From Alteromonas sp. V450 (GTDB lineage: Bacteria > Pseudomonadota > Gammaproteobacteria > Enterobacterales > Alteromonadaceae): a DNA stretch of 64,000 nucleotides. Below, piece by piece: positions 49,257-64,000 of this stretch. The stretch is taken from contig NZ_MODU01000004.1 of assembly GCF_001885075.1 (NCBI RefSeq), positions 2,170,001-2,234,000 of the forward strand. Reading direction: 5' to 3'. The notes beneath the pieces were generated by a model. It was given only the letters and a program-made list of their open reading frames with translations, searched no databases and had not been told where the DNA came from. Position 1 is the first letter of the stretch; every line of letters begins with the position of its first letter. A program made the position numbers and the translations under genes.

Positions 49257-49279
49257 ACATTACAAGAAAGGTGACACCT

Positions 49280-50431
49280 TTGGAATTAAGTTTTGTTATT
49301 CCATGTTTAAATGAAGAAAAAACGCTGGCCACGTGCATTAGGAAAGCTAAAAAATTTATCGAGCGTGAAGGGATAATCGCTGAAATAATCATTGCTGATA
49401 ATGGTTCAACAGACGCTTCAAAAGAAATTGCGCTTGCAGAGGGGGCCAAAGTTGTAGACGTTAACCGAAAAGGCTATGGCGCAGCAATCTCTGGCGGTAT
49501 TAAAGCCGCTCAGGGAAAATATGTAATCATGGGCGATGCTGATGATAGTTATGATTTTGAAAATTTAGATGCATTTTTAAAAGAGCTTCGATCCGGCGCC
49601 GAATTAGTTATGGGAAATAGGTTCGCGGGAGGAATAGGACGCAAAGCAATGCCGTTCTTGCATCGCTATCTAGGCAACCCAGTACTGAGTTTTCTTGGTA
49701 GATTGTTTTTTTCGTCTTCAATTAGAGATTTTCACTGTGGCCTAAGAGGGTTTAACCGTAATTCAATCATCAAACTCAATTTGACGTGTCCGGGCATGGA
49801 GTTTGCGAGTGAAATGGTAGTAAAAGCATCTTTACAAGGGCTAAAAATAAACGAAGTCCCGACAACACTTAAGAAGGATGGAAGGGACAGACCTCCCCAT
49901 TTGAATACATGGAGAGACGGTTGGCGCCATCTAAAGTTTTTATTGATTTATAGCCCCAAATGGCTGTTTTTTTATCCCGGCGTTTTGTTATTACTCATCG
50001 GCATTGCTGGCATTAGTACACTCTCGTTAGGGGGAATTTCGATAGGTAATTTGAATTTAGACTACCATACCATGCTTTATTCTTCGGCATTCGCAGTAAG
50101 CGGTGTCCAGATGATCTCGTTTGCTTTTATTAGTAAAACGATGGGAAAAGTGATGAATCTATGGAAGTCGAGTGACGCGATGTTGAAAGCAGTAGACATT
50201 TTTATTCGAGAAAAAGCGCTTTTCTTTTTTTTCGCCTTGCTGCTGTCAGGCATATGCTTAGGTATTACGACTATAGGCAAATGGAGCGACATAGACTATG
50301 GCCCGATTACCGACTTTAGTATCTTACGTTTATCTATAATATCGATAACCCTCATTATTGTCGCAGGTCAAGGAGTTCTTTCTTGGTTTTTTCTAAATTC
50401 TCTTCTTATGTTTCATGAGAAAGAAAAGTGA
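49280..50431 (+). CDS. Family 2 glycosyltransferase with C-terminal membrane helices (polyprenyl-phosphate sugar synthase type)
   Basis: 383 residues. The N-terminal GT-A domain shows SFVIPCLNEEKTL, the donor-binding IIADNGSTD, GYGAAISGGI and metal-binding MGDADDSYDFENL, then RDFHCGLRGFNR typical of dolichol/undecaprenyl-phosphate sugar synthases. Four membrane helices follow from about residue 230 (LFFYPGVLLLLIGIAGI onward). It would transfer a sugar from a nucleotide to a lipid carrier. I prefer TTG 49280 with AAAGGTG 6 bases upstream; GTG 49271 is possible. Convergent with the methyltransferase (6 bases apart). Confidence 0.9.
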   Translation: MELSFVIPCLNEEKTLATCIRKAKKFIEREGIIAEIIIADNGSTDASKEIALAEGAKVVDVNRKGYGAAISGGIKAAQGKYVIMGDADDSYDFENLDAFLKELRSGAELVMGNRFAGGIGRKAMPFLHRYLGNPVLSFLGRLFFSSSIRDFHCGLRGFNRNSIIKLNLTCPGMEFASEMVVKASLQGLKINEVPTTLKKDGRDRPPHLNTWRDGWRHLKFLLIYSPKWLFFYPGVLLLLIGIAGISTLSLGGISIGNLNLDYHTMLYSSAFAVSGVQMISFAFISKTMGKVMNLWKSSDAMLKAVDIFIREKALFFFFALLLSGICLGITTIGKWSDIDYGPITDFSILRLSIISITLIIVAGQGVLSWFFLNSLLMFHEKEK

Positions 50432-50437
50432 ACCACA

Positions 50438-51136
50438 TCAATCAGATGAATTGAACTTAGGGGCGTAGGCAATGATGTTGCTGGGCCAACCGCAAAGGGA
50501 AAGAGTAAGCACATTAGGTTCTGATTGAGTCGATTTCTGCATTATCCGCTTTACGTCCTTAGGAGCAAGTAGGTTGAGGTTTTCTTCTTTAGAAAAGAAA
50601 GAATAGGAAGTCCGACTCAAAATAGAACGGAAAACTGGCTTTGGTAGCCAATGCAAGACGGGCAATACGGTATGAAACTCTATTGGAAACCACCGATTTG
50701 GAGTAGTGATAAATACCCCCTTTCTGGCAACTCTATATAATTCTTCAATAAACCTGTGCTGGTTGTCTTCACTACCTACATGTTCAAGTACTGCTGAAGA
50801 ATGAACGTAATCAAATGAATTGTCTTCAAAGGGTAAGTCGAGACCATTTGCTTGAATAAACTTCATACCTTCATACACAGTTTCTAAAAACGAGGCATCA
50901 TCAAGCCCCACGGCAGTAATCTTACTTTTGTGCGGATACCAGGCTTCCAGATAATTTGATGCCTCATAGGTTTGATCGCCAGTAACCCCTACGTCAAGAA
51001 TAGACTCAGTACGTGAAACACATGTCAATTCTATGAACAAGTCATACATTTTTCTTCGCTGGTACGCTGCTACTCTTACAGGTAAGCTTTTTGGTGCTGC
51101 AACATTGTATTGTTCATTTACTTTTTTTGGAGACAC
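50438..51136 (-). CDS. Class I SAM-dependent methyltransferase
   Basis: 232 residues. Motif I region ESILDVGVTGDQTYE (an atypical Gly pattern), motif II-like ITAVGLDDASF, and DNSFDYVHSSAVLEHVGSE, the usual post-II/acceptor block of methyltransferase type 11. A short hydrophobic patch near residue 155 (FHTVLPVLHWLPK) is common in glycan-linked versions. Start at GTG 51136 after GGTGGAG, which is very close to the start; uncertain. Surrounded by glycosyltransferase-type genes, it may methylate a sugar or a polyprenyl-linked glycan. Confidence 0.82.
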   Translation of the reverse strand: MSPKKVNEQYNVAAPKSLPVRVAAYQRRKMYDLFIELTCVSRTESILDVGVTGDQTYEASNYLEAWYPHKSKITAVGLDDASFLETVYEGMKFIQANGLDLPFEDNSFDYVHSSAVLEHVGSEDNQHRFIEELYRVARKGVFITTPNRWFPIEFHTVLPVLHWLPKPVFRSILSRTSYSFFSKEENLNLLAPKDVKRIMQKSTQSEPNVLTLSLCGWPSNIIAYAPKFNSSD

Positions 51137-51316
51137 TCCACCAACCTTCTTTAAAAAATATTGTGAGGCCGCAAACTATATCAAAGATGTTGGTTTATTC
51201 TAGCGCTTAAAATTAGGGCATCCTATAAGTAAGATTAAGTGATTGAATTCTATTCCTTGATGGCGAACTTAAGTCGGTTTAGTATCCGAGTACTTCAGTT
51301 TATTCATATCGAATGA

Positions 51317-51733
51317 TTGTTTATTGTGAATTCCGACTCTTTTTTATCAAAATTTTCTAGGTTTTGCGTTAGCGGAACTGCCATGGCGATGGCCTGTGCC
51401 ATTTTAGTAGGTATAGCCTCTCAGAGTATTAGCAATAACGTCGTATTTTTTTTTGTTTGTATTCTAATGCACTTCTTTTTAAGTGTTATTAACTACCTTT
51501 TACAATCCTGTTGGGTATTTAGGGGCCAGGGAAGCTTTCTTATTTATATTCTTTACAGCATTATCTGTGCTGGAGTCTTCGGCTTGGTGAATACATTGGT
51601 TCTATATTTTTTTAATAGTAGAAACCTAACCGTCGTGACTTTTGCTTATATCCTCTCAGTGGGTGTAGTCGTGCCTTTATCGTATTTTTTAAATAGTCGC
51701 CTTTTCAAAAATAAAATTGAGGCCAAATCGTAG
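51317..51733 (+). CDS. GtrA-family membrane protein (putative lipid-linked sugar flippase)
   Basis: 138 residues with four membrane helices packed closely: LSKFSRFCVSGTAMAMACAIL, NVVFFFVCILMHFFLSVINYLL (split), LIYILYSIICAGVFGLVNTLVL and the last at FAYILSVGVVVPLSYFLNSRLF. The RFCVSGT start and LNSRLFK end fit the GtrA family, which flips undecaprenyl-phosphate sugars. Starts at a TTG (or GTG 51326); no clear ribosome binding site. It is 18 bases before the next gene. Confidence 0.8.
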   Translation: MFIVNSDSFLSKFSRFCVSGTAMAMACAILVGIASQSISNNVVFFFVCILMHFFLSVINYLLQSCWVFRGQGSFLIYILYSIICAGVFGLVNTLVLYFFNSRNLTVVTFAYILSVGVVVPLSYFLNSRLFKNKIEAKS

Positions 51734-51751
51734 TTTTTAAAAGGATGTAGT

Positions 51752-53662
51752 ATGTTTTTTTACGGAAAAAACAAAACGAAATTTTTTTTGGCAATTTTGC
51801 CAATCATATGTTGCGTGATATGGCAATTTATTGCTGGAAAGGATCTAAATTGGGATGCTAATAATTATCACCTTTATGCAGGGTTTTCAGCAATAAATGA
51901 TCGTTTCTCACAAGATTTTTTTGCTGCTGGCCCACAAAGCTACCTAAACCCTTATGCGTATACTCTTTTCTATCTTCTCGTTACTTACTCTTCAAATGCA
52001 TTGTTGGTGGGCTTGTTACTTGCAATCAGCCAAAGTGCTGTAATCTATTTAACATGGGGAATTGCAAAGTCTGTGCTGAAGCAGACCGCTCCTTCAACGA
52101 GTTTTTTAATTCTCACTACAATACTGAGCGTGTCAACTACCGTAGTCTGGCACCAAATAGGTTCATCTTTTATTGATATCTATGTAACAATATTTGTGTT
52201 GGCGGGTGTTTATTCTCTTTTAAAGTATGATGTTTCTCCTACTGCTACACGTGCGTTTCTATCGGCTTTCGTTTTAGGCTTTGCTGTAGGAATTAAACTT
52301 ACATCAGGGATGTTCGCATTGGCCGGCGCCTGTTGCGCCCTCTACTTGATGTGTATTAAACACAAAAAGTATAAACACTTTATATGGTTTTCTGTTGCTG
52401 GTGTTGTTGGTGCACTTCTTGTAGAAGGTTGGTGGGCTTACAGGGTATTTCAAGAAACCGGAAACCCGTTTTTTCCTTTTTTTAATAGTGTATTCTGCTC
52501 ACCGTATACTATTTGTGAGTCAATTAAACACCACAGGTTTATTCCATCCTCTTTGTCAGAAGCCCTGGTTTTGCCCTTTGAAATGCTTCTTCCTTCGCCA
52601 TGGCTTTACATTGAACTATTATCACCTGACGCTCGATTCGCCTTTTTGTTTATCGCTATTCCAATATTTGTATATTTGCAAAGACGTAGCAAGGACGTTG
52701 CGACCCCATTTAAAGTAGTAATTGGTTTCTGGTTAATTTGTTACTTTATATGGCTGTACGCAACTGCAAACGGTCGCTATGGTATGCCACTGTTTATTTT
52801 GGTAGGAATAATCATAGGCTATATCATCGCTAAATCATTAAACGCAAAACGCGCTCAGATATATATGCTCTTATTAGTCACATTTCAGGCGTTTCTTTTG
52901 GTATTTGGCGGAGGTTTGAGGTGGAATTCACAAGAATGGACTTCTCCTTATTTTGAATATCAACTGCCTGAAAAATTAACGAATTCTCCGGCTTTATATA
53001 TATCCGCAACACGGCAGTCTAATAGTTTCTTGATCCCACAATATCACCCTGATTCATCGTTTATAAACGTGTCAGGTCAGATGCCCTTAGATGGAAAAAG
53101 TGCGTTGGGTAAAATTGAACAACTATCAAAACTTCATAACGGTAGAGTTCGTTTCTTTGCCGAAGTAGAAGTTCTGGAAGGCAAGCAAATAGCCGATGTA
53201 AATTGGCCCCAAAATTTTAATAGTAAGATTGAGCGGTTTGGTTGGAAAATTGTTAAGGACCAATGTGAATACGTTGAAAACAACGTTAACAAAGGGACAA
53301 TTGGGCTACGCTATATTGCGGACTGCCCTATTGAAGAAGACGCAGCGTTAGCAACTCGCTTTCAACGTTCTGTCGTAGAGATTGATACAATATTTAGTAA
53401 TATAGAAAAGCATTGCCCACAACTATTCAGTCCTTCAACAGGGGTAACAGAAAAATTCGGCGGCGCTTGGTCACGCGAATATATTGGTACCGATACGTCC
53501 ATTTTTATTACAGATATCAGTGTCATTAAAGTAACCAGTAATGAAGTGGAGGCTACGGTATTAGGCACTAGAGAAGAATGGTCGAAAAACCCTGCTTCTG
53601 CGGCTAAAGGCTGTTTCACAAACGGTCAGAAACGGTCAAAGTCGATGACATTTGACCTATAA
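51752..53662 (+). CDS. Polytopic membrane glycosyltransferase (GT-C-like)
   Basis: 636 residues with a SD AAAGGATG. About ten to eleven membrane helices fill residues 10-390, then a periplasmic C-terminal domain of about 240 residues. The first extracytoplasmic loop carries DLNWDANNYHLYAGF, with the acidic residue expected in a GT-C enzyme. It would use the lipid-linked sugar made by the GT2 and flipped by GtrA. The late part has Cys (DQCEYVE, IADCPIEED, KHCPQLF, KGCFTNG) that could form disulfides. Low GC compared with the flanks. Family assignment is by architecture only. Confidence 0.75.
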   Translation: MFFYGKNKTKFFLAILPIICCVIWQFIAGKDLNWDANNYHLYAGFSAINDRFSQDFFAAGPQSYLNPYAYTLFYLLVTYSSNALLVGLLLAISQSAVIYLTWGIAKSVLKQTAPSTSFLILTTILSVSTTVVWHQIGSSFIDIYVTIFVLAGVYSLLKYDVSPTATRAFLSAFVLGFAVGIKLTSGMFALAGACCALYLMCIKHKKYKHFIWFSVAGVVGALLVEGWWAYRVFQETGNPFFPFFNSVFCSPYTICESIKHHRFIPSSLSEALVLPFEMLLPSPWLYIELLSPDARFAFLFIAIPIFVYLQRRSKDVATPFKVVIGFWLICYFIWLYATANGRYGMPLFILVGIIIGYIIAKSLNAKRAQIYMLLLVTFQAFLLVFGGGLRWNSQEWTSPYFEYQLPEKLTNSPALYISATRQSNSFLIPQYHPDSSFINVSGQMPLDGKSALGKIEQLSKLHNGRVRFFAEVEVLEGKQIADVNWPQNFNSKIERFGWKIVKDQCEYVENNVNKGTIGLRYIADCPIEEDAALATRFQRSVVEIDTIFSNIEKHCPQLFSPSTGVTEKFGGAWSREYIGTDTSIFITDISVIKVTSNEVEATVLGTREEWSKNPASAAKGCFTNGQKRSKSMTFDL

Positions 53663-53873: not shown

Positions 53874-55163
53874 TTAAAAGAGTTCTATCTTAGGCTCTCG
53901 TGCCTCTTCAAACTCACTTTTTTCTTCAGGTGATGATTCATTGATATCAAAATGGATTTTACGCTGATCTTCCATTACATATTTTTCAAACATTTCTTTG
54001 GTGCTTAAGTTAAACGACTCATCAAAATGCTCGCGGTTATTGATGTAAGACGAAAACTGTCCGAACAAACTAACGATCGCGTCTTGCTCTAGTTTCACAT
54101 GCTCAGTACGCTGGCGAATAATGTCTTGGAACTGAATTTTCGCGATGGCACCGCTTACTTTTACCGCAACGTCGGTGGCGCTTTGCGAGAAGCACGCCAG
54201 CATTTTGGGATTGAGTTCTTCAAGCACGCGATAGTGTGTCGTTATGTTTTCTAACGACTCAGAAAAACCCGTCAACAATTCACATGTGTCATTTGCGCGC
54301 GTAGAGCTCAGCATTTTCTCACCTTGCAAATGCGCAGCGTCGAGCGCTGATTTTATGCCCGACTCTATTTTTTCGGCCGCTTCTGAAGACTGTGATGATA
54401 GGATACGAACCTGTTCGGCCACTACCGCAAACCCTCGGCCATATTCGCCTGCGCGGGCAGCTTCAATTGCTGCATTAAGCGCTAATAAATTAGTTTGTGA
54501 AGCAATATTTTTTACAAGCTCTGTCAGTTCTTTCAGGTTTTCAACTTCACGCATGACCCCTTGAATTGCCTCAGTGTCTGCAATTTGCTGCTCTCTTTGC
54601 GTACTGATCATCGCTTTTATACTGGATAAGCGCTCAGCTGCTTTAGTGAACTCGTCAGCACTTTTTTCCTTACAACTAAGAGCATTTTTCTGTCCTAATT
54701 CAACGTTGTCTATACTGTCTTGTATGCTGCTTTCAATTTCGTACAGTGCCTTCATCAGCTCCATAGAAGCATCTTCAGTTATTGCACTTATGCCATCCAT
54801 CTGCCCTTTTAATATGGCGACATAATCATTAACTTGAGAGTGAGTTTCACTTAATTGTGTTGAGGTTTCCCGCAAATAACTTTCTTGCTCGTGTAGTTTG
54901 GCTGCATAAATGCGATTTTGTCTACTTGCATACCAAGGCATAAAGCAAAACATGCTAACAATAGTGATTATCACTCCCGCATGCACGCCTATTACCGACG
55001 AGGACGTTGTCAACGACCCTCCAATTCCAAGTGATGCCACAATAACTAATCCGCCCCACAGTAAAAGCGAATCCTGCATACTACCTGTCTTGTCCTTAAG
55101 CACTTTTAATTTCTCAGCGAGCACTGTCTCGTAATACTGCTTTGCTTTTTCAAGTACTTTCAT
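53874..55163 (-). CDS. Methyl-accepting chemotaxis-type receptor without periplasmic domain
   Basis: 429 residues, last gene of the operon. Two membrane helices close together (about residues 32-50 and 60-80) leave almost no periplasmic loop, so sensing must be cytoplasmic, in the membrane or through partners. The signalling tip [16 protein letters not shown] and [12 protein letters not shown] is canonical for CheA/CheW docking. After the bundle comes [15 protein letters not shown], recalling the Q-D-x-x-x-Q region of CheZ-type helices, and an acidic tail ([17 protein letters not shown]). Whether it is methylated is not certain, as only some sites look right. Confidence 0.9.
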
Positions 55164-55172
55164 GTTTTTACC

Positions 55173-55541
55173 TTATGCAGTTGGTACCAACTGCTTTACT
55201 ACACCTAATAATTGCTCTGGTTCGACGGGTTTGACGAGCCAGCCTGTAGCACCAGCAGATTTGGCCTCCTCACGACGGCTTTGCTGAGACTCAGTGGTTA
55301 ACATCAACATGGGGGTAAATCTAAATTTAGACTGCTGTTTTAATGTTTTTATTAGCTCTATACCATTCATACCTGGCATATTTAAGTCAGTAATAATCAA
55401 CTTGGGCGATATGGATTCAAGCGCAACCATAGCTGCTTCTGCACTTTCTGACTTTGTTACCGTATAGCCTGCCCGCTTTAATAGCATTTCCATGCTCATC
55501 AACATCGTTGCTGAATCATCTACTAAGTGTATTGCGCTCAT
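55173..55541 (-). CDS. CheY-like single-domain response regulator
   Basis: 122 residues, a lone receiver: acidic pair Asp8/Asp9, phospho-acceptor Asp52 in TDLNMPG, Thr in MLTTES near residue 82 and Lys104 in LVKPVEP. No output domain, so it would act by protein contact. Lies between the ParA gene (4-base ATGA-type overlap) and the terminal receptor gene (9 bases). Confidence 0.93.
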   Translation of the reverse strand: MSAIHLVDDSATMLMSMEMLLKRAGYTVTKSESAEAAMVALESISPKLIITDLNMPGMNGIELIKTLKQQSKFRFTPMLMLTTESQQSRREEAKSAGATGWLVKPVEPEQLLGVVKQLVPTA

Positions 55542-56293
55542 TGCATTACCTCTTGTTTATAGCCGATTAACTGTTTACACAACTCAGTATAGTCTCGAGC
55601 TCCTCGACTGTGAGGCGCATAGGCAGTTACCGGCTTATTTTCTGCGAATGCCTCGGCTAAAGTTATGTTTTTATGTATTGGACTAAGCACTTTGTTTCGA
55701 CCATAGCGGCCGTACCAGTTACTCAATTCTTGGCGATGTAACTTTAAGTTTTGCTCTACCATTACCGGTAAAATGGTTAGGTTTGTCGCTCTAAACTTGC
55801 GCTCTGCCATGGCCTTCCGACACGCATTTAACAGCTTTTGAACACCGTCGCTTGCAAGTGGCATGGGCGTAGCAGGTATAATGATATCTGTGGCGGCGGA
55901 CAGTGCTGCCATTAGCTGTGAGCTTAACGTTGGCGGCGTGTCGATAATAACGATATCGAAATGCGTTGATACTTCGTCGCTATCACACCAAAGGCGAATA
56001 GCGTCTAACGCAATGTCGTCGTTAGTGTTTGCGCGTGTAGTGTCAACACTAGTGGCATAAATTTTTTCACTACATTTAACGATTGAGGTGAAAAAGTCTT
56101 TGAGTGGCATGGTCTTTATGGTGCTTTGTGGCTCAGTTCCAAGCGCCGTCAAGCCTTGCATAACGTGGCCTTGATTATCCAAATCAAGTACTAAAACACG
56201 GTTGCCATGTTGTGCAAAGCCAAAAGCGAGATTGACCACTGTGGTAGTCTTTGCTGTCCCGCCTTTGCGATTTGCAACCGTGATCACTCTCAT
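55538..56293 (-). CDS. ParA/Soj-family ATPase
   Basis: 251-residue ParA-type P-loop ATPase. Deviant Walker A NRKGGTAKTTT with signature Lys at residue 10, Walker A' region LVLDLDNQGHVMQGL, Walker B IVIIDTPPTL. No partner ParB gene and no N-terminal HTH, so this is not a plasmid partition gene; ParA homologues of this size inside chemotaxis clusters position receptor arrays (PpfA in Rhodobacter, ParC in Vibrio). Overlaps both neighbours, the 85-residue gene upstream and CheY downstream. Confidence 0.92.
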   Translation of the reverse strand: MRVITVANRKGGTAKTTTVVNLAFGFAQHGNRVLVLDLDNQGHVMQGLTALGTEPQSTIKTMPLKDFFTSIVKCSEKIYATSVDTTRANTNDDIALDAIRLWCDSDEVSTHFDIVIIDTPPTLSSQLMAALSAATDIIIPATPMPLASDGVQKLLNACRKAMAERKFRATNLTILPVMVEQNLKLHRQELSNWYGRYGRNKVLSPIHKNITLAEAFAENKPVTAYAPHSRGARDYTELCKQLIGYKQEVMQ

Positions 56294-56547
56294 TCACACC
56301 ACACTTTATTGTTGTCTGATTGAAGCATCTCTACTATCCAATATAGTTCTGATGATTCAGGCTGTACACTAACCTTTGGTCGTAAGCACAAAAGCACTTG
56401 GAAAACCGCGGTATGTGCGGTTTTTAACGTTTTTAGATTAAGCTGCCGTGAGGCGTCCTCTGTCAGCCAACTAAACAAGGTTTCAGCCTCTTCAATTTCA
56501 CAATGTCCGGCAAGCACTGCTACTTTTTTCTTGAACGTTACAGGCAT
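56290..56547 (-). CDS. Small unknown protein between cheA and parA (STAS-like guess)
   Basis: 85 residues, ATG at 56547 inside the end of cheA (10-base overlap), and its stop overlaps the parA start. Distinctive blocks are AGHCEIEEAETLFSWL and LKTAHTAVFQVLLCLRP. No membrane segment. The strand-helix order suggests a very short STAS-like fold, but I do not recognise the family. Tight coupling to cheA and parA makes it a probable component of this system. Confidence 0.8.
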   Translation of the reverse strand: MPVTFKKKVAVLAGHCEIEEAETLFSWLTEDASRQLNLKTLKTAHTAVFQVLLCLRPKVSVQPESSELYWIVEMLQSDNNKVWCE

Positions 56548-59081
56548 GTGGATATGACCTCCTGCACATTGATAATGAGTAATACCCTTCCATCTCCAAG
56601 TAATGCTGTACCTGAGAAGTGGGAATAGCCAGCAAGGACGCCTTCAAGGGGTTTTTGAATAACGTCAATACCTTCATGAAACTTATCAATAATAAGCCCA
56701 AACTCGCCCTGCGGCGTTGACACAACTAATACCGAGTGTTCCTCTTTACTGTCGTCAGGTTCGAACCCCAGCGCATCTCGCAAATTACAAAGCGGTATTA
56801 ACTTATCCCGTATCACCAACACGTTTTCATTGCGTATTCGCTGAATGTCCTGCGTAGGAACTTTCACGGTTTCTACTACCGCGTCCATACTTACGCCAAA
56901 CATCTGATCGTTTACTTCAAACATCATGACGCGATTTACTGACATTGTCTGAGGAAGAAGCAGCTTGAACGTAGAGCCCACGCCAACCTCACTCTGCATT
57001 TCTATAGTACCGCCTGCCTGACTTACCATGGTTTTTACTGCATCCATGCCCACTCCACGACCGGACAAATCCGACACTTGTTCACTGGTGGAAAACCCTG
57101 CGGCGAAAATCAGCTGAAGTGCCTCATTATCGTCTATGCTCTCAAGCTGAGACTCTGTTATTACGCCTTTCTGAAAAGCGAGAAGCTTAATTTTATGGGG
57201 GTCAATGCCCTTGCCATCGTCACGTATTTCGATAATGACGCTGTCATCAAGGGGGGTAGCAATCAAGTCAATACGCCCAGTTTCAGGCTTGCCCGCCTCT
57301 ATTCTGTCTTCGGGCGATTCGATACCATGGTCAATACTATTGCGCAGTAAATGGATGAGGGGCTCTGATAACGATTCAATTAAGTTTTTATCAAACTCGG
57401 TGTCTTCACCTTGCATACACAGTTCAATTTTCTTATCGAGCTTTCTCGATAAATCTCTAACCAACCTTGGATAACGCTGAAAAACATGTGAAACCGGCAC
57501 CATTCGTATCTGCAGTACCGCGCTTTGTAATGACTCGGTTAAACGGTTAACAATTGAAAAGTGCGCTTTTATCTGCTTGCTTAGTTTCTTGCTTCCACCT
57601 TCTTCTTCAGCTTGCTTAGCCAAGTAAGGAAGTGAGTTTTTTGCAACCGTTAGTTCGCCAACTATGTCCATTAAATAATCAATTTTAGTTTGGTCAACCT
57701 TCAGCATTTTGACCGCTTGTCGCTCAGCTTTAGCCGGTTGAGATGCATCGTCTTCTGCTGTTTGCGTCTCTGATTCGTTTGTTGCGTTGGTGGTTTCAAC
57801 AACATCCCGTATTTCAGGTATGTCATTTTGCACGTCTTCTAACGCCGCGTTAATTGCACTTATTAGTTCTGCTTCATTGCTGAATGTTTGCTTTAATACA
57901 TTGCCAACAAGCATGGATATTGAGGGAAACATAAACTCTGCGTTATAGCCCTCAGAGCTTATCAGTGCTAATTGTTGCGTTAATAACTCTTTTTCATGTG
58001 GTAACAAACCTTCTTTACTCAGTTCCGCGGCTAAACTGTCTGATTCACCCGCAAGGTCGTCTGACTCGTCAGCTGTTATAACTTCATCCAGAAAAGTAAG
58101 ATCGTTATCAGATGATAAAAATGACAACACCGCTCTTATTGGCATAGCGTGTGTTTGCGACGCCAGCAAAAGCCCAGCGGTCGACTGCAACATATTGTTA
58201 TCACCAGCCTCACGAGCGGTTTTTAAAGCGTCATTTAACGCTTCATCATTCAGCTGCGCTACGCTGTCGAGGATCTTGTCTTTACATCGATATTTAAGTG
58301 CCTGCTGAGTAAGCTTATGTAGTTTATACTGGCCTTCATAATAGGCCATATGTGTCACGACAGCGTCTTCGCTTGCTTCGCCAAGGGCAGTTATTTTTAA
58401 GACGCATTGATAAACATCTGCATCAGCGGCCATCGCGGGCGCGTTGATTTCAAAAGCGCGTAAACCCGGCAGCGCCAGTGCGACATTCACTGGGTCCTCA
58501 CCGCGAAAAAAGCAACCTTCATCAGGAGTATATTCAATTACATACAGATCCGATGACGCGCTTTTAGACAATAACGCAATATCCGCATTGTCATCGAACG
58601 CATCAAGCGCAGTAGCTACTGAATCAACGATTTCGTTGGTGCTGCTATCAGCCTGAGCGGCAGGTGTTTGTTCAGTGGTATTGGCACCAGCTTGAGACGG
58701 GTCAATGAAGGCTCGAAGCTGCGCACTTAAATCGGTAGAGATGGGTTGCCATTCAGCGAGACTTTGAGTTCCGTTTTCCAGCTCATCAAACCACATAGAT
58801 ATCTGATCTAATGCTTCAAGAAGCAGGTCACCAATCTCGTCGTTGTAATCAACCTCTTTCGCTCGCACGCTGTCTAATAAATCTTCCGCAGCATGAGCCA
58901 AACGCGTCAATGGTTTTATATCGAATAAGTCTGACGAACCTTTGATCGTGTGTAAATCTCTGAAGATTTTGTCCACTTTGTCCGACGATGGGCCTGAAGC
59001 TTGAATCTCAATAAGCTCTTGACTTGCAGACTCTAGGTTCTCGCGAGACTCACCGATAAAGACGTCGAGTAGTTCACTCAT
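56538..59081 (-). CDS. cheA: Chemotaxis-type histidine kinase CheA
   Basis: 847 residues. Hpt domain at the N-terminus with phospho-His44 in DLHTIKGSSDLF. A long middle part (about 140-460) includes a ferredoxin-like block (IEYTPDEGCFFRGEDPVNVAL) where P2 would be and a second poorly defined helical stretch. Dimerisation P3 starts at VDQTKIDYLMDIVGELTVAK, then the kinase with N box HLLRNSIDHG, G1 RDDGKGID and G2 GRGVGMDAVK, and a CheW-like C-terminal domain. It has a single Hpt and no receiver. Its start overlaps the end of cheY. Confidence 0.96.
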   Translation of the reverse strand: MSELLDVFIGESRENLESASQELIEIQASGPSSDKVDKIFRDLHTIKGSSDLFDIKPLTRLAHAAEDLLDSVRAKEVDYNDEIGDLLLEALDQISMWFDELENGTQSLAEWQPISTDLSAQLRAFIDPSQAGANTTEQTPAAQADSSTNEIVDSVATALDAFDDNADIALLSKSASSDLYVIEYTPDEGCFFRGEDPVNVALALPGLRAFEINAPAMAADADVYQCVLKITALGEASEDAVVTHMAYYEGQYKLHKLTQQALKYRCKDKILDSVAQLNDEALNDALKTAREAGDNNMLQSTAGLLLASQTHAMPIRAVLSFLSSDNDLTFLDEVITADESDDLAGESDSLAAELSKEGLLPHEKELLTQQLALISSEGYNAEFMFPSISMLVGNVLKQTFSNEAELISAINAALEDVQNDIPEIRDVVETTNATNESETQTAEDDASQPAKAERQAVKMLKVDQTKIDYLMDIVGELTVAKNSLPYLAKQAEEEGGSKKLSKQIKAHFSIVNRLTESLQSAVLQIRMVPVSHVFQRYPRLVRDLSRKLDKKIELCMQGEDTEFDKNLIESLSEPLIHLLRNSIDHGIESPEDRIEAGKPETGRIDLIATPLDDSVIIEIRDDGKGIDPHKIKLLAFQKGVITESQLESIDDNEALQLIFAAGFSTSEQVSDLSGRGVGMDAVKTMVSQAGGTIEMQSEVGVGSTFKLLLPQTMSVNRVMMFEVNDQMFGVSMDAVVETVKVPTQDIQRIRNENVLVIRDKLIPLCNLRDALGFEPDDSKEEHSVLVVSTPQGEFGLIIDKFHEGIDVIQKPLEGVLAGYSHFSGTALLGDGRVLLIINVQEVISTCL

Positions 59082-59449
59082 TAGCTACCTCCCAAAACCG
59101 CACTGACCACAGACTTAAGTGCATCTGCGTCAACAGGCTTAGTCATGTAGAAGTTTGCACCACATTGATAGGCCCGCTGCGCGTCCTGGGTTGCAGACTC
59201 TGTGCTTATCATGATAATGGGAACAGCGCGCAGTAGCTCGTTTTGCCTGATTTCTTTACAGAGTCGGTAACCGTCCATTTTAGGCATATTTACATCGACC
59301 AAAAACAAATCGATAGGAGTGCCGATGGCTTTCTCCAGCGCTTCCACACCATTTTCAGCTTCTTCCACGACACGGTCGTCAGAAGATACCAACATTTTAT
59401 GAAACATTCTGACTGTAGACGCGTCGTCGACTATCATTACTGTTTTCAT
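59081..59449 (-). CDS. cheY: CheY-like single-domain response regulator
   Basis: 122 residues, lone receiver: Asp8/Asp9, phospho-Asp52 in LVDVNMPKMDG, Thr83 in MISTES, Lys104 in MTKPVDA. Start at ATG 59449; a longer frame from 59494 adds 15 residues lying in cheR. GGAGGGG inside the end of cheR acts as ribosome binding site, and only one base separates the cheR stop from this ATG. Overlaps cheA by one base (TAATG type). Confidence 0.94.
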   Translation of the reverse strand: MKTVMIVDDASTVRMFHKMLVSSDDRVVEEAENGVEALEKAIGTPIDLFLVDVNMPKMDGYRLCKEIRQNELLRAVPIIMISTESATQDAQRAYQCGANFYMTKPVDADALKSVVSAVLGGS

Positions 59450-59450
59450 G

Positions 59451-60305
59451 TTACGCCCCTCCTGCAAGTGGCTTTTGGTAGGCAATAACATCACCGAACT
59501 TACGCACTTTAAACATAGACGATATCCGGCTCATCGACTCACTATGCCCTAGAAAGATGTATCCACCTGGTTTCATCGCATCAAACAATACATGTGCTGC
59601 TTTTTTGCGCGACTCATCGTCAAAATAAATGAGCAAGTTTCGGCAGAATACCAAGTCAAAGTGTCGAAACCCCTTCATGTTTGCACCTGATAGAATGTTG
59701 GCTAGTGAAAATGAAACCGACTCTCGTATATCGTCACATAGCTGAAACTGACCGTTGGTCTCTATGAAATACTTTTTCACCAACGCGGTTGGAATGTTCT
59801 GCACCGAGCGCTTTGAATAAAGCCCTTTTTTAGCAGACGCTAGAACATTGCTGTCAATATCTGAAGACGCTATCTCTACATCTCGATGCGCTAGCCCTTT
59901 CCAGTTTTCGATAAGATGAATAGCAATCGAGTAAGGCTCCTCGCCCGTGCTTGAAGGCACAGACCAAATTCGTAGGTCCTCCCCCGGTGCACGATAGCTA
60001 TCGAGTTCATCCATGATATAACGTGTCATTGCGTCAAATTGGTATTCTTCGCGGAAGAAGTAGGTTTCATTCACTGTCATCGCGTTGACGAGGTTTTGGA
60101 ACTCTTCCCCCGACGCTTGGAACCGCATGTATGTGAAATAGCTTTTGAAGTTTGTGTGCCCCGTAGCCTTCATCCGCTCGTGTAATCGTTTATCAACGAA
60201 ATAACGCTTTGAGTCTTCAAAATGGATCCCCGTTTTTCGGTAGAACATCGACCGAAAGCGCTCGAAATCAGCCGCGGCGATTTTTTCCAACGTTGCTGTA
60301 GTCAT
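59451..60305 (-). CDS. cheR: Chemotaxis protein methyltransferase CheR
   Basis: 284-residue SAM-dependent glutamate methyltransferase of receptors. N-terminal helical domain (FERFRSMFYRKTGIHFEDSK), then VNETYFFREEYQF, the SAM-binding WSVPSSTGEEPYSIAI and DLVFCRNLLIYFDDESR. No TPR tail and no C-terminal pentapeptide-binding sign beyond the core. The start overlaps the end of the HEAT gene (TAATG). Confidence 0.96.
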   Translation of the reverse strand: MTTATLEKIAAADFERFRSMFYRKTGIHFEDSKRYFVDKRLHERMKATGHTNFKSYFTYMRFQASGEEFQNLVNAMTVNETYFFREEYQFDAMTRYIMDELDSYRAPGEDLRIWSVPSSTGEEPYSIAIHLIENWKGLAHRDVEIASSDIDSNVLASAKKGLYSKRSVQNIPTALVKKYFIETNGQFQLCDDIRESVSFSLANILSGANMKGFRHFDLVFCRNLLIYFDDESRKKAAHVLFDAMKPGGYIFLGHSESMSRISSMFKVRKFGDVIAYQKPLAGGA

Positions 60306-60940
60306 TATGCGCTCCCTAATTGATTTCGAATTAGGCTTATGACAAAGGCAATGTAGGCATGGTTGGGAAAGCGGCTCTCAACAGTTTGCAAAATGTCATA
60401 GGTAGAACTATCTGACACCTCTGCAAGCTTGTCTAAAGCTGTACCAACAACGTTCTCATTGTCATCATTGAGTGCAATGTGATGCAACCAATTCAACGCA
60501 TCGGGATGTGCCACTGCGCCAATAATGTCAACACAAAAAATACGCGTATCAGGGTCATCGTCTTGCATCAGTTTATGCACGTTGTGTGCGAACAAGTCAG
60601 GGTTTTGCTGCATAAGTTCTATTGCACCGTTACGCAACTGCACTTGTTCACTTTTCAACATGCCTATCAGTTGAGATGCATCGGCATCCGTCATATTGTG
60701 TTCAAGCGCACTAAATAATGCTTCGATAACTGTTGGGTCGTTTTCCGCTGGGAGTCGCTCTAAAAAAACCTTGTGCGCGTTCTCTTCACCACTTAAGTCA
60801 CGTACGGCCCAGCGTCTTACACTGCTGTCTGGGGAGGCTAGATCGGCTACTAACTGCTCTGGCGTTCGTTCAGCACTGCGCTTTTCTTCTTGTTGAATTA
60901 CTGTGTCGTCACTGGCATTTGATTTCTTTTTTAAACCCAT
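60305..60940 (-). CDS. HEAT-repeat protein within che operon
   Basis: 211 residues, cytoplasmic. After a basic start (GLKKKSNASDDTV) come helical pairs spaced about 30 residues, as HEAT repeats: SPDSSVRRWAVRDLSG, DPTVIEALFSALEHN, SEQVQLRNGAIELMQ, DPDTRIFCVDIIGAVA, NENVVGTALDKLAE. Such solenoids bind partners. Start is ATG 60940 with AGGAG 8 bases upstream; the frame opening at 60964 begins at a TTG inside cheB and is unlikely. Lies between cheB and cheR, both receptor-modifying enzymes, and may scaffold them. Confidence 0.88.
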   Translation of the reverse strand: MGLKKKSNASDDTVIQQEEKRSAERTPEQLVADLASPDSSVRRWAVRDLSGEENAHKVFLERLPAENDPTVIEALFSALEHNMTDADASQLIGMLKSEQVQLRNGAIELMQQNPDLFAHNVHKLMQDDDPDTRIFCVDIIGAVAHPDALNWLHHIALNDDNENVVGTALDKLAEVSDSSTYDILQTVESRFPNHAYIAFVISLIRNQLGSA

Positions 60941-60954
60941 AACACTTGCTCCTG

Positions 60955-61992
60955 TTATCGACAAAGTGCATTCAACTTTGACACTATTTTAGGACTGTCT
61001 AATACATGACTGGCGCAGCCGGCCTCAATTAGTTCTTTTGGCATACCAAATACAACAGATGTTGCTTCACTCTCAGCAATCGTTGTAGCACCTCCTTTGT
61101 ATGCTTTGCTCATTGCAGCTACGCCATCGCTGCCCATTCCAGTTAGCTGTACACACAGCATGGCGAGTGGTTCATAGCAATTCAGTGCACTATCTACCAT
61201 ACGATCGACACTGGGATGCCACAAAAAACTTGGGCTCGCTGGTACAGGTCGAACGTGAATATCAGCACCCGTTTTTGCAAAAGCTAAGTCAGCATCGCCC
61301 TTCGCCAAGTAGATTTTGCCCGCTTCAAGAACCATTCTTGAGTCAACTTCGACAACATTTAGTGGGCTTAATCCATCTAATCGCTTAGCCAATGCTTGGG
61401 TAAACGAAGCAGGCATATGCTGTGAAATAACGATGGGTGCTGGAAATGTGGGTGAAATATTGGTTACCAAGTGTTCAAGCTTCCGCGGTCCCCCGGTCGA
61501 AACCCCTATCATGACAATTTCAAAAGGCGTGCTTTTATTATTTCTCACCACACGCTGCTTCACGACGGGGGGCGGTTTGATAGTGGGCCGCTGTGCCCTT
61601 CCCGTCTTTGCTAACGCATTTATTTTGTTGATTAACGGCGTTTCTATATCAGAAATGTCTCGGCTTACAGTGCCCCCTGTTTTCAGTACAAAGTCGCTGG
61701 CGCCTAATGCTAATGCTTCAAGAGTAATAGCCGCACCTTTTTGCGTTAGCGAAGAAACCATAATAGTAGGACATGGATACAATTTTCTTAATAAAGCCAA
61801 ACAGGTCATACCGTCCATCACAGGCATGTTAATATCAAGCGTGATACAGTCGGGTTTAAATTCGACCGCTTTAGAAAGCGCTTCTTCACCGTTTCTTGCA
61901 ACCTGGACAGTGAACCCCTCTCTTTCAAACAATTGAGTAAAGAGTTTGCGCATTAGCGCAGAGTCATCCACTGCAAGCACTTTTACCGACAT
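60955..61992 (-). CDS. cheB: Protein-glutamate methylesterase CheB
   Basis: 345 residues: receiver domain (Asp9/Asp10, phospho-Asp53 in TLDINMPVMDG) joined to a methylesterase. The catalytic triad is visible as Ser in GVSTGGPRK, His in SQHMPASF and Asp in TGMGSDGVA. I start at ATG 61992 after GGGAG at 5 bases; ATG 62004 adds four residues. It follows the triple CheW gene by 41 bases. Removes methyl groups (or deamidates) from receptors. Confidence 0.95.
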   Translation of the reverse strand: MSVKVLAVDDSALMRKLFTQLFEREGFTVQVARNGEEALSKAVEFKPDCITLDINMPVMDGMTCLALLRKLYPCPTIMVSSLTQKGAAITLEALALGASDFVLKTGGTVSRDISDIETPLINKINALAKTGRAQRPTIKPPPVVKQRVVRNNKSTPFEIVMIGVSTGGPRKLEHLVTNISPTFPAPIVISQHMPASFTQALAKRLDGLSPLNVVEVDSRMVLEAGKIYLAKGDADLAFAKTGADIHVRPVPASPSFLWHPSVDRMVDSALNCYEPLAMLCVQLTGMGSDGVAAMSKAYKGGATTIAESEATSVVFGMPKELIEAGCASHVLDSPKIVSKLNALCR

Positions 61993-62033
61993 AGCATCTC
62001 CCATTAATCAACCAAGTAAGCTAGCCTACTTAA

Positions 62034-63581
62034 CTAGAACTGCGTTTGTGCTTGAGCCACCGCGTTGTCATTTAGCAAAACATTGGGCTCTATAATTTGA
62101 ATAATGCGCTTTTCGTCGTTTAATTTTATTAATCGACTTAAAAATTCAGACTGCATTTCTGACAACGAAGGCGCTGTTTCAATGGTTTGTTTAACCACAG
62201 TTTTTACTTCTGCAACGCCATCAACAATAAAGCCTGTGCGCTGCTTATCTTTCGTTAGCACAACAATTCGCTGTCGTTCAGATGATTCACTGCTTGGTAT
62301 GCCAAGGCGACATCTTAAGTCGATAACGGGCAGCACCGTGCCGCGCAGATTTACAATCCCTTTTAAATAATCAGGGGTACTTGGAATGCTCTCTAACTTT
62401 TCTGGTACACGGGTTATTTCTTGGGTGTCATCAATGCTTACCCCATATTCCTGACCATTAATCCAGAAAATGACGTACTGCTCGCAATCATCTTCGTTGA
62501 TGGCGGCATCGTTATTCTCGTTCATCTGCGACTCCTGCTTTATGTCTTCATCTATTGAACTCAATGCTGTCATGAGCGCTCGACTGTAGACATTAGTTAG
62601 ATTTATTATCGACACAAGACGCTTTCCACCGTCGCTTCTATATACCGCTTCGAGCAGCCCTGACTCCGCGCCGTCGTTGCAAACCGATGGCACAGCTTCA
62701 AGTTCACTTTCAGAGATTGAAACAACGTTACTCACTTTAGCGACCACAAATCCAACGCTGCCGAACTCGCTGTTTTGCGCTATGACAATACGAGAGGCTT
62801 CGTTAATATCGGTATGGACCATGCCAATGCAGTTTGCCAAATCGACAATGGGTATAATGCGGCCTCGTAAATTCACTAGTCCTAACACTGATGGTGCACT
62901 TTCTGGAAGCTGAGAAATTTCGCTGGGTACACGAACAATTTCTTCCACGTCCTGTAGGTGAAATGCGAACTCTTGATCTTCAAGAGAGAAGCAAACCAGT
63001 TGCTGTAGATTATGGTCATCTGATTCAGTAATCTCGTCGTCGCTGTCAATATGATGCATACCCGACAGCTGCATCGTATTACCATCCTGCTTTGTTACGG
63101 CTTGTGCTCTGGCTAAAGACGATACATCGAGTATTTGTTCTACGGGTTGGTCATCTTGCTTGATAATGCCCTGCATGTATTCATAGGCGATAGATTCGGT
63201 CATCGACTTTTTATCAATTACCGTTTCATTAGGCACTCCAAATACTTTCAGCACCCTGTCAACCATAAAGCCGACGCTACCGAGTTCCGATTCTACAACT
63301 ACCACGCGAGTCACATCGGTAATTCGTGAGCTGACACCCAGCAAAATCATGCTTAGATCATAGACAGGTAAAACATTGCCTCTTAAGTTGGCTAATCCAA
63401 TCATTTGAGCAGGTCCGAGTGGCACCGATACCACAGTAGGGACACGTATGATTTCGCCTACAGAATGCATCGGAAATGTGAATCGCTCCTCGTTTACAAG
63501 AAAGGAAACGAATTGCTGTTCACCGTCACCCGTGTCGTCCTGAAGATTTTCAGCACTTTCTATATTTGAAACATCAGTCAT
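62034..63581 (-). CDS. Triple-domain CheW-like coupling protein
   Basis: 515 residues holding three CheW domains. The first covers about residues 20-165 (FVSFLVNEERFTFPM, IGLANLRGNVLPVYDL), the second 190-335 (LVCFSLEDQEFAFHL, LGLVNLRGRIIPIVDL), the third 365-500 (YVIFWINGQEYGVSI, KGIVNLRGTVLPVIDL). Each keeps the NLRG turn that contacts receptor and kinase. Linkers are acidic (SDDEITESDD; NENNDAAINEDD). It could link several receptors or kinases at once, building an unusual array. Lies between the partial receptor and cheB. Confidence 0.94.
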   Translation of the reverse strand: MTDVSNIESAENLQDDTGDGEQQFVSFLVNEERFTFPMHSVGEIIRVPTVVSVPLGPAQMIGLANLRGNVLPVYDLSMILLGVSSRITDVTRVVVVESELGSVGFMVDRVLKVFGVPNETVIDKKSMTESIAYEYMQGIIKQDDQPVEQILDVSSLARAQAVTKQDGNTMQLSGMHHIDSDDEITESDDHNLQQLVCFSLEDQEFAFHLQDVEEIVRVPSEISQLPESAPSVLGLVNLRGRIIPIVDLANCIGMVHTDINEASRIVIAQNSEFGSVGFVVAKVSNVVSISESELEAVPSVCNDGAESGLLEAVYRSDGGKRLVSIINLTNVYSRALMTALSSIDEDIKQESQMNENNDAAINEDDCEQYVIFWINGQEYGVSIDDTQEITRVPEKLESIPSTPDYLKGIVNLRGTVLPVIDLRCRLGIPSSESSERQRIVVLTKDKQRTGFIVDGVAEVKTVVKQTIETAPSLSEMQSEFLSRLIKLNDEKRIIQIIEPNVLLNDNAVAQAQTQF

Positions 63582-63610
63582 AAGAAAGACTCCTCTGACA
63601 AGGTGGATAA

Positions 63611-64000
63611 TTAACCGTTTTGCATTTCGTCTGCCACTGATGCAATTTCTTCAATCGATTTTGCAAGGATCTCCATGCCTTTGCTCTGTTGCTCAGCAGC
63701 ATTAAGCGCTTGCTGGCAGTTGCTGCTTGCCTGCTCGTTGGCGGCTGCAATCTGCTCAAGGCCTTTCTGCGCTTGTGTAACACCTGCGGCAATTTCCTCA
63801 CCCCGGTCTTTCATGGCTTGGTTGTACTCCACCACCTCAGAGATATCGGCTGCTATCTTTTCAACGTCTTTGGTTGTTTGTACCGCCTTCATCACTTCTC
63901 GTGATGCGCTCTCGGCTACGTTGGTAAGGTCAGTTTTAACACTCACTGTTTGATCTTGAATGGCTTTGATGAGGTCTTTTATTTGTTCCACATTTTCAGC
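63611..64000 (-). CDS. Methyl-accepting chemotaxis-type receptor, C-terminal part (cut by right edge)
   Basis: 129 residues visible; the frame runs in from beyond 64000 with AENVEQIKDLIKAIQDQ. It is a long coiled-coil heptad pattern rich in Ala, Glu, Gln and Lys (SASREVMKAVQTTKDVEKIAADI split; QKGLEQIAAANEQASSNCQQ split) ending SIEEIASVADEMQNG. This is the receptor bundle downstream of the signalling tip. The GTG at 63989-63991 is not its start. First gene of the visible operon, 29 bases before the triple CheW gene. Confidence 0.85.
   Translation of the reverse strand, partial: AENVEQIKDLIKAIQDQTVSVKTDLTNVAESASREVMKAVQTTKDVEKIAADISEVVEYNQAMKDRGEEIAAGVTQAQKGLEQIAAANEQASSNCQQALNAAEQQSKGMEILAKSIEEIASVADEMQNG

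Follow-up and report, generated by a model that had tools for sequence, protein, structure and literature searches.

A class F9-type chemosensory operon of Alteromonas with genes for HEAT-repeat, ParA and predicted STAS-fold proteins

Introduction

Few chemosensory classes lack a known function, and class F9 is among them. Two of its proteins, DosM and CheW3, have unusual architectures that are unique to the class (PMC9321776). Cluster I of Vibrio cholerae, the best-studied F9 system, comprises the transmembrane receptor VC1394, the kinase CheA (VC1397), CheW3 (VC1402) and DosM (VC1403) (PMC7534058), and a further list of its genes includes cheB1, cheR1, cheY2 and cheY1 (PMC11940527). The V. 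cholerae F9 system builds a free-floating, double-layered receptor sheet in the cytoplasm; these arrays are seen in starvation or at low oxygen, and deletion of the F9 kinase has no detectable phenotype under standard conditions. We take che2 of Azospirillum brasilense to be the F9 operon of that organism. The che2 operon is dispensable for chemotaxis (PMC8561660). Precedents for accessory proteins come from other systems: PpfA positions the cytoplasmic array of Rhodobacter (PMC3964821), the STAS-only protein CheS of Sinorhizobium meliloti complexes with CheA (PMC12654446), and the HEAT protein OE2401F of Halobacterium is needed for flagellar switching (PMC2666748), although we claim no homology for the last of these.

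Here we analyse an operon at the end of a 64,000-nucleotide stretch of DNA (the window), which corresponds to positions 2170001-2234000 of contig C4 in a genome of 4.39 Mb. The nearest named relatives in a scan with the triple CheW are Alteromonas species. With this operon, class F9 can be studied in a marine genus outside the usual models, whose species naturally differ in having or lacking the system at one chromosomal site.

Results

Eleven open reading frames, all on the minus strand, span position 53874 to the end of the window; most overlap and the others are separated by gaps of 9-29 bp. ORF calls and Pfam matches thus bear out the earlier note on this DNA, which had described eleven closely packed minus-strand genes, and its reading of them as an alternative chemosensory operon, compact and with additional array-organising genes, is supported. 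The features, in the order of transcription, are as follows.

63611..64000 in the window, full gene to 65518 in extended coordinates (L011:9811-11718), minus strand: dosM, 635 aa, two MCPsignal matches in one frame at G000:C4, no TM segment
62034..63581, minus strand: cheW3, 515 aa, three concatenated CheW domains (Pfam)
60955..62004, minus strand: cheB, REC and methylesterase domains (Pfam), catalytic motifs intact
60305..60940, minus strand: HEAT-repeat protein of an F9-associated family, HEAT_2 (Pfam), disordered N-terminus starting MGLKKK
59451..60305, minus strand: cheR methyltransferase (Pfam)
59081..59449, minus strand: cheY1, lone receiver (Response_reg) upstream of cheA
56538..59081, minus strand: F9 cheA, with Hpt, H-kinase_dim, HATPase_c and CheW domains, catalytic boxes intact
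56290..56547, minus strand: predicted STAS-fold protein, CheS-like, 85 aa (AlphaFold, Foldseek; weak STAS_2 in relatives)
55538..56293, minus strand: ParA-type ATPase of an F9-specific clade, ParA/AAA_31 (Pfam), deviant Walker A NRKGGTAKTT
55173..55541, minus strand: cheY2, lone receiver domain, Response_reg (Pfam)
53874..55163, minus strand: receptor, 429 aa, MCPsignal, two TM segments, no periplasmic domain

The most likely start codons of the HEAT and CheY1 genes are the ATG at 60940 and an ATG near 59449, respectively.

Three hallmarks of class F9 are present: a soluble DosM with two tandem signalling domains, a single protein with three Pfam CheW stretches, and the system's own full set of CheA, CheY, CheB and CheR. 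In addition, the CheA resembles those of other DosM/CheW3 operons, a comparison of similarity only. Arithmetic on the published numbering and gene lists, rather than sequence comparison, gives the order of V. cholerae cluster I as VC1403 (DosM), VC1402 (CheW3), cheB1, an unlisted gene, cheR1, cheY2, VC1397 (CheA), an unlisted gene, cheY1 and VC1394. By this count, the positions of HEAT and STAS would each be taken by a single unlisted gene and a ParA gene would not fit in, so that the V. cholerae order equals that of the Alteromonas operon minus ParA. The earlier note had implied that the system is novel and had named beforehand a match in gene order with a well-characterised class as one finding that would speak against this; the order is that of class F9, and the claim of novelty falls.

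The signalling tips of DosM lie at about residues 172 and 472, and no other protein of this genome shows two full MCP signalling matches; a single split match occurs in one further gene. Wherever it was scored in an intact copy, across alpha-, beta- and gammaproteobacteria, the distance between the tips is 300 residues; L094, L101, L102 and L103, in which only one tip matches the pattern, are outside the scored set, and the interrupted copy L051 differs. Such constancy is in keeping with DosM being a rod of constant length that joins two baseplates, a structural prediction that can be checked by tomography.

In the 429-aa receptor, two hydrophobic segments at about residues 32-80 are joined by only a short loop, so that, as the earlier note held, the one receptor complete in the window has no periplasmic domain; in position and topology the protein is like VC1394. 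This arrangement raises the possibility that the operon is composite, with the membrane receptor standing outside the F9 array and signalling to the F6 flagellar array. The same has been proposed for VC1394 (PMC7534058), and a membrane anchor would be odd in a purely cytoplasmic array. Against this, most of the complete F9 loci, even widely separated ones, keep the receptor gene next to cheY2, and we consider a composite operon possible but somewhat doubtful.

When the sequence was extended past position 64000, the truncated receptor gene (dosM) proved to end 1.5 kb beyond the window and to be followed by mutT, secA, an M23-type peptidase gene, lpxC and ftsZ, names given by eye from the sequences; no flagellar operon is present there. 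On the opposite flank, likewise named by eye, sugar-transfer and membrane genes precede an astE-type gene, an old-yellow-enzyme-type reductase gene, zapD, coaE and pilD-pilC-pilA. The interval between astE and the operon (49271-53662) holds glycosyltransferase, methyltransferase, GtrA-like and large membrane-protein genes, and it looks like an insertion unshared by the other Alteromonas F9 loci with flanks, in which astE follows the receptor gene almost directly. The gene mutT adjoins all Alteromonas and Marisediminitalea F9 loci examined with flanks, and in two Alteromonas genomes that lack the system, mutT and astE are adjacent, about 110-200 bp apart, with no che genes between them. Judged from these flanks, the F9 operon is an optional insert at the mutT-astE junction.

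The absence of CheZ, CheD and flagellar genes, as claimed in the earlier note, holds for the operon but not for the genome. Elsewhere, judging by eye from gene sequences and their order, an F6 cluster that includes a cheZ-like gene lies next to flagellar genes, and there are two tandem, very similar F7-type clusters with cheD-like genes (L014:5035-19077 and L015:102-7008; 3640-3662 kb of C4), which have the order MCP-CheY-CheA-CheW-MCP-CheR-CheD-CheB and are apparently a duplication. All CheW domains of the genome (13/13) fall to F6, F7, F9 or CheV, and no CheW domain or kinase of the ChpA type, which would mark the Tfp (Pil-Chp) class, is found in it. With F6 and F7 systems present and ChpA absent, a primary role of the operon in swimming or twitching is unlikely. 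The idea that the operon is a novel alternative system controlling type IV pilus surface motility had its footing in pilA, pilC and pilD, which lie about 10 kb off. The gene order, however, matches F9 and not the Tfp class, no ChpA-type CheW domain is encoded in the genome, and other Alteromonas genomes have mutT and astE side by side without the operon, so that the proximity of the pil genes is incidental. We therefore regard this idea as very improbable, and the candidacy of surface motility raised earlier is not supported.

The triple-CheW alignment scan yielded 24 named loci, of which a few are fragmentary or partial and some have ParA located elsewhere. Complete loci share the order DosM-CheW3-CheB-HEAT-CheR-CheY1-CheA-STAS-(ParA)-CheY2-receptor. 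A search for the eleven-gene order, as the earlier note had proposed, found it in other Alteromonas, Marisediminitalea, Glaciecola and a Methylobacterium plasmid; because gene order is kept across many genomes, a chance grouping is excluded. Annotated plasmids of Methylobacterium, Methylosinus, Azospirillum, Eleftheria and Sphaerotilus carry the same core. No Vibrio locus is among the matches of the scan, and no STAS match was found at the F9 locus of Rheinheimera. Full-length triple CheW proteins occur in 5/150 genomes of the family sample (the source genome counted) and in 4/395 genomes of the order, and 8/399 genomes of the phylum have a triple CheW at a looser cut; a DosM search of 296 order-level genomes gave two positives. 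This distribution agrees with the sporadic presence of F9 described in PMC9321776. Within the genus, DosM is found in 15/60 genomes, and a facultative operon of this kind might be a decayed, non-functional relic. All eleven frames are open, however, inspection of the sequences finds the catalytic motifs of CheA, CheB and CheR intact, and the proteins are conserved across genera, which leaves a relic a most remote prospect.

Reduced loci were also seen. Plasmids of Agrobacterium vitis (L102:2737-12893) and Novosphingobium resinovorum (L103:2776-13229) carry shortened F9-like operons with a DosM-like receptor, triple CheW, CheB, CheR, CheA, STAS and a single CheY followed by a CheX phosphatase, but with neither HEAT nor CheY1. 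DosM and CheW3 occur together at L058:7934-11446 and L057:1598-5110; L057 is cut by the contig end, and L058, without the remaining F9 set, resembles the "partial F9" sets of PMC9321776.

The 85-aa ORF alone has no Pfam match. Its AlphaFold model (pLDDT 91) gives best Foldseek matches that are mostly STAS domains (SpoIIAA, RsbV and MlaB) with modest TM-scores of about 0.5. Pfam STAS_2 is weakly matched by 3/15 members of the family (best 0.005) and by the Novosphingobium homologue (0.0002); the STAS alignment has no match among PDB sequences. On the strength of the model we assign the protein a STAS fold. Residues M1, H45 and Q50 are invariant among 15 aligned homologues, and almost all complete F9 operons inspected have the gene after cheA, whose end it overlaps here. 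Three features of CheS are thus seen, namely the STAS fold, the single domain and the location near cheA, and a QVLMA-like stretch is common to the family and S. meliloti CheS. Profile similarity to CheS is weak by hhalign (P 0.0024, probability 12%, 47 columns), and the S. meliloti cheS gene lies two genes before cheA. By analogy, we infer a CheS-like role. The fold alone would also suit an anti-sigma-factor antagonist, in which case the true output of the system would be gene expression by partner switching; SpoIIAA and RsbV are the closest solved structures, and a Shewanella Che system has been connected with RpoS regulation (PMC9855816). By eye, however, the position equivalent to the Asp-Ser phosphorylation motif of SpoIIAA has another sequence in the family, an invariant His45 followed by T, A or S, and the place of the gene directly after cheA has its precedent in CheS. 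Partner switching is accordingly an unlikely explanation.

The HEAT protein is modelled as a 12-helix solenoid with the first 20 residues disordered, and its alignment has strongly conserved positions. A plasmid search with this protein matched 16/72,556 records, all from Azospirillum, Sphaerotilus, Eleftheria, Methylobacterium and Methylosinus, and the five positive records inspected all proved to be F9 operons (5/5). On this evidence from sequence searches, the HEAT protein belongs to an F9-associated family. No paper in the literature searched names both DosM and HEAT repeats.

The DosM (start 65518, extended coordinates) and HEAT (start 60940) proteins, which are unrelated, share an N-terminal M(A/G)(L/F)xK peptide. 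Among 326 ORFs of at least 200 aa with an ATG start in F9 loci, 23 begin in this way and 23/23 encode DosM or HEAT, although these stem from related loci and are not 23 independent events; deviating members include DosM with MSLVRK and HEAT with MPLIPQ. A ParA-activating tail was rejected as the role of the DosM peptide, which is kept in ParA-less operons. Binding of the DosM peptide to the HEAT groove was likewise rejected, since the peptide is kept in the HEAT-less A. vitis and Novosphingobium operons and HEAT's own copy is disordered in the model. The readings left are a third partner shared by both proteins or an influence on the start of translation.

The deviant Walker A motif with its signature lysine, NRKGG-x-[AG]-K-[TS], is present in 12/12 aligned F9 ParAs, and a PDB sequence search with the ParA returned Soj-type proteins. 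In a tree with a small outgroup of five other ParAs, the 13 from F9 loci group together as a single clade (100/100). Several F9 operons are without ParA, which is thus not essential, and its presence on the CheW3 tree needs about six changes. The simplest reading of these trees is that ParA would date from early in the history of F9, with several later losses or relocations. In L042, L043 and L046, a stop codon removes the last seven ParA residues relative to the window copy.

Discussion

The genes, their order, their motifs and their conservation, all observed, together with an array predicted by analogy to V. cholerae, make it highly probable that the operon encodes a complete F9-class system with a DosM-built cytoplasmic array. 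In such an array, DosM rods would span two opposed CheA/CheW3 baseplates to give a flat receptor sandwich, CheR and CheB would adapt the receptors, and CheA would phosphorylate CheB and the two CheYs, as in V. cholerae. Like rhizobial CheS, the STAS protein may act at CheA and steer phosphate between the CheYs, a proposal that we hold at close to, but just under, an even chance; one CheY would then probably be a dephosphorylation route because the operon is without CheZ. A strict sink role that depends on two CheYs is less convincing in view of F9-like operons that keep the STAS gene alongside a single CheY and a CheX phosphatase. For ParA, a role like that of PpfA in Rhodobacter is probable, namely to position the cytoplasmic array or to segregate it. 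We suggest, tentatively and with some reservation, that F9 arrays have an undescribed conserved module, consisting of the HEAT solenoid, the CheS-like STAS protein and an ancestrally dedicated ParA, together with a docking peptide through which DosM and HEAT would bind one common array partner, HEAT being delivered to the scaffold or competing with it. The shared peptide is a structural prediction that pull-downs can check.

The output of the system is most likely conditional, on starvation or low oxygen, and accessory to F6. Whether it acts on a target other than motility seems to us evenly balanced; modulation of flagellar behaviour is a real possibility that we rate below that, and twitching is highly unlikely.

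It is well supported that the Alteromonas operon is a new member of a known but poorly understood class, and it is the accessory module rather than the system that deserves specialist attention. The operon points to three directly testable accessory parts, namely STAS at CheA, HEAT, and ParA for the cytoplasmic array.

Compared through published papers, V. cholerae cluster I has DosM, the triple CheW, CheB, CheR, two CheYs, CheA and a terminal transmembrane receptor in common with the Alteromonas operon, which differs in having ParA. The TlpT/PpfA cluster of Rhodobacter sphaeroides is alike in its cytoplasmic array and in a ParA ATPase encoded next to chemosensory genes, but its array is curved and its receptors are others, so that the likeness is one of working and not a claim of the same family. 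CheS of S. meliloti is similarly small and STAS-only, its gene lies near cheA and its system has two CheYs, whereas the exact gene position differs and the profile similarity of CheS to the F9 protein is weak. The Azospirillum plasmid operon, probably Che2 of A. brasilense, shares DosM-CheW3-CheB-HEAT-CheR-CheY-CheA-STAS; it is without ParA and has extra CheC phosphatases and a PAS-domain protein. Finally, plasmid NZ_CP089297.1 of Methylobacterium currus has the identical eleven-gene order, including STAS, ParA, CheY2 and the receptor, although this operon is plasmid-borne and the proteins compared have 33-50% identity to those of Alteromonas.
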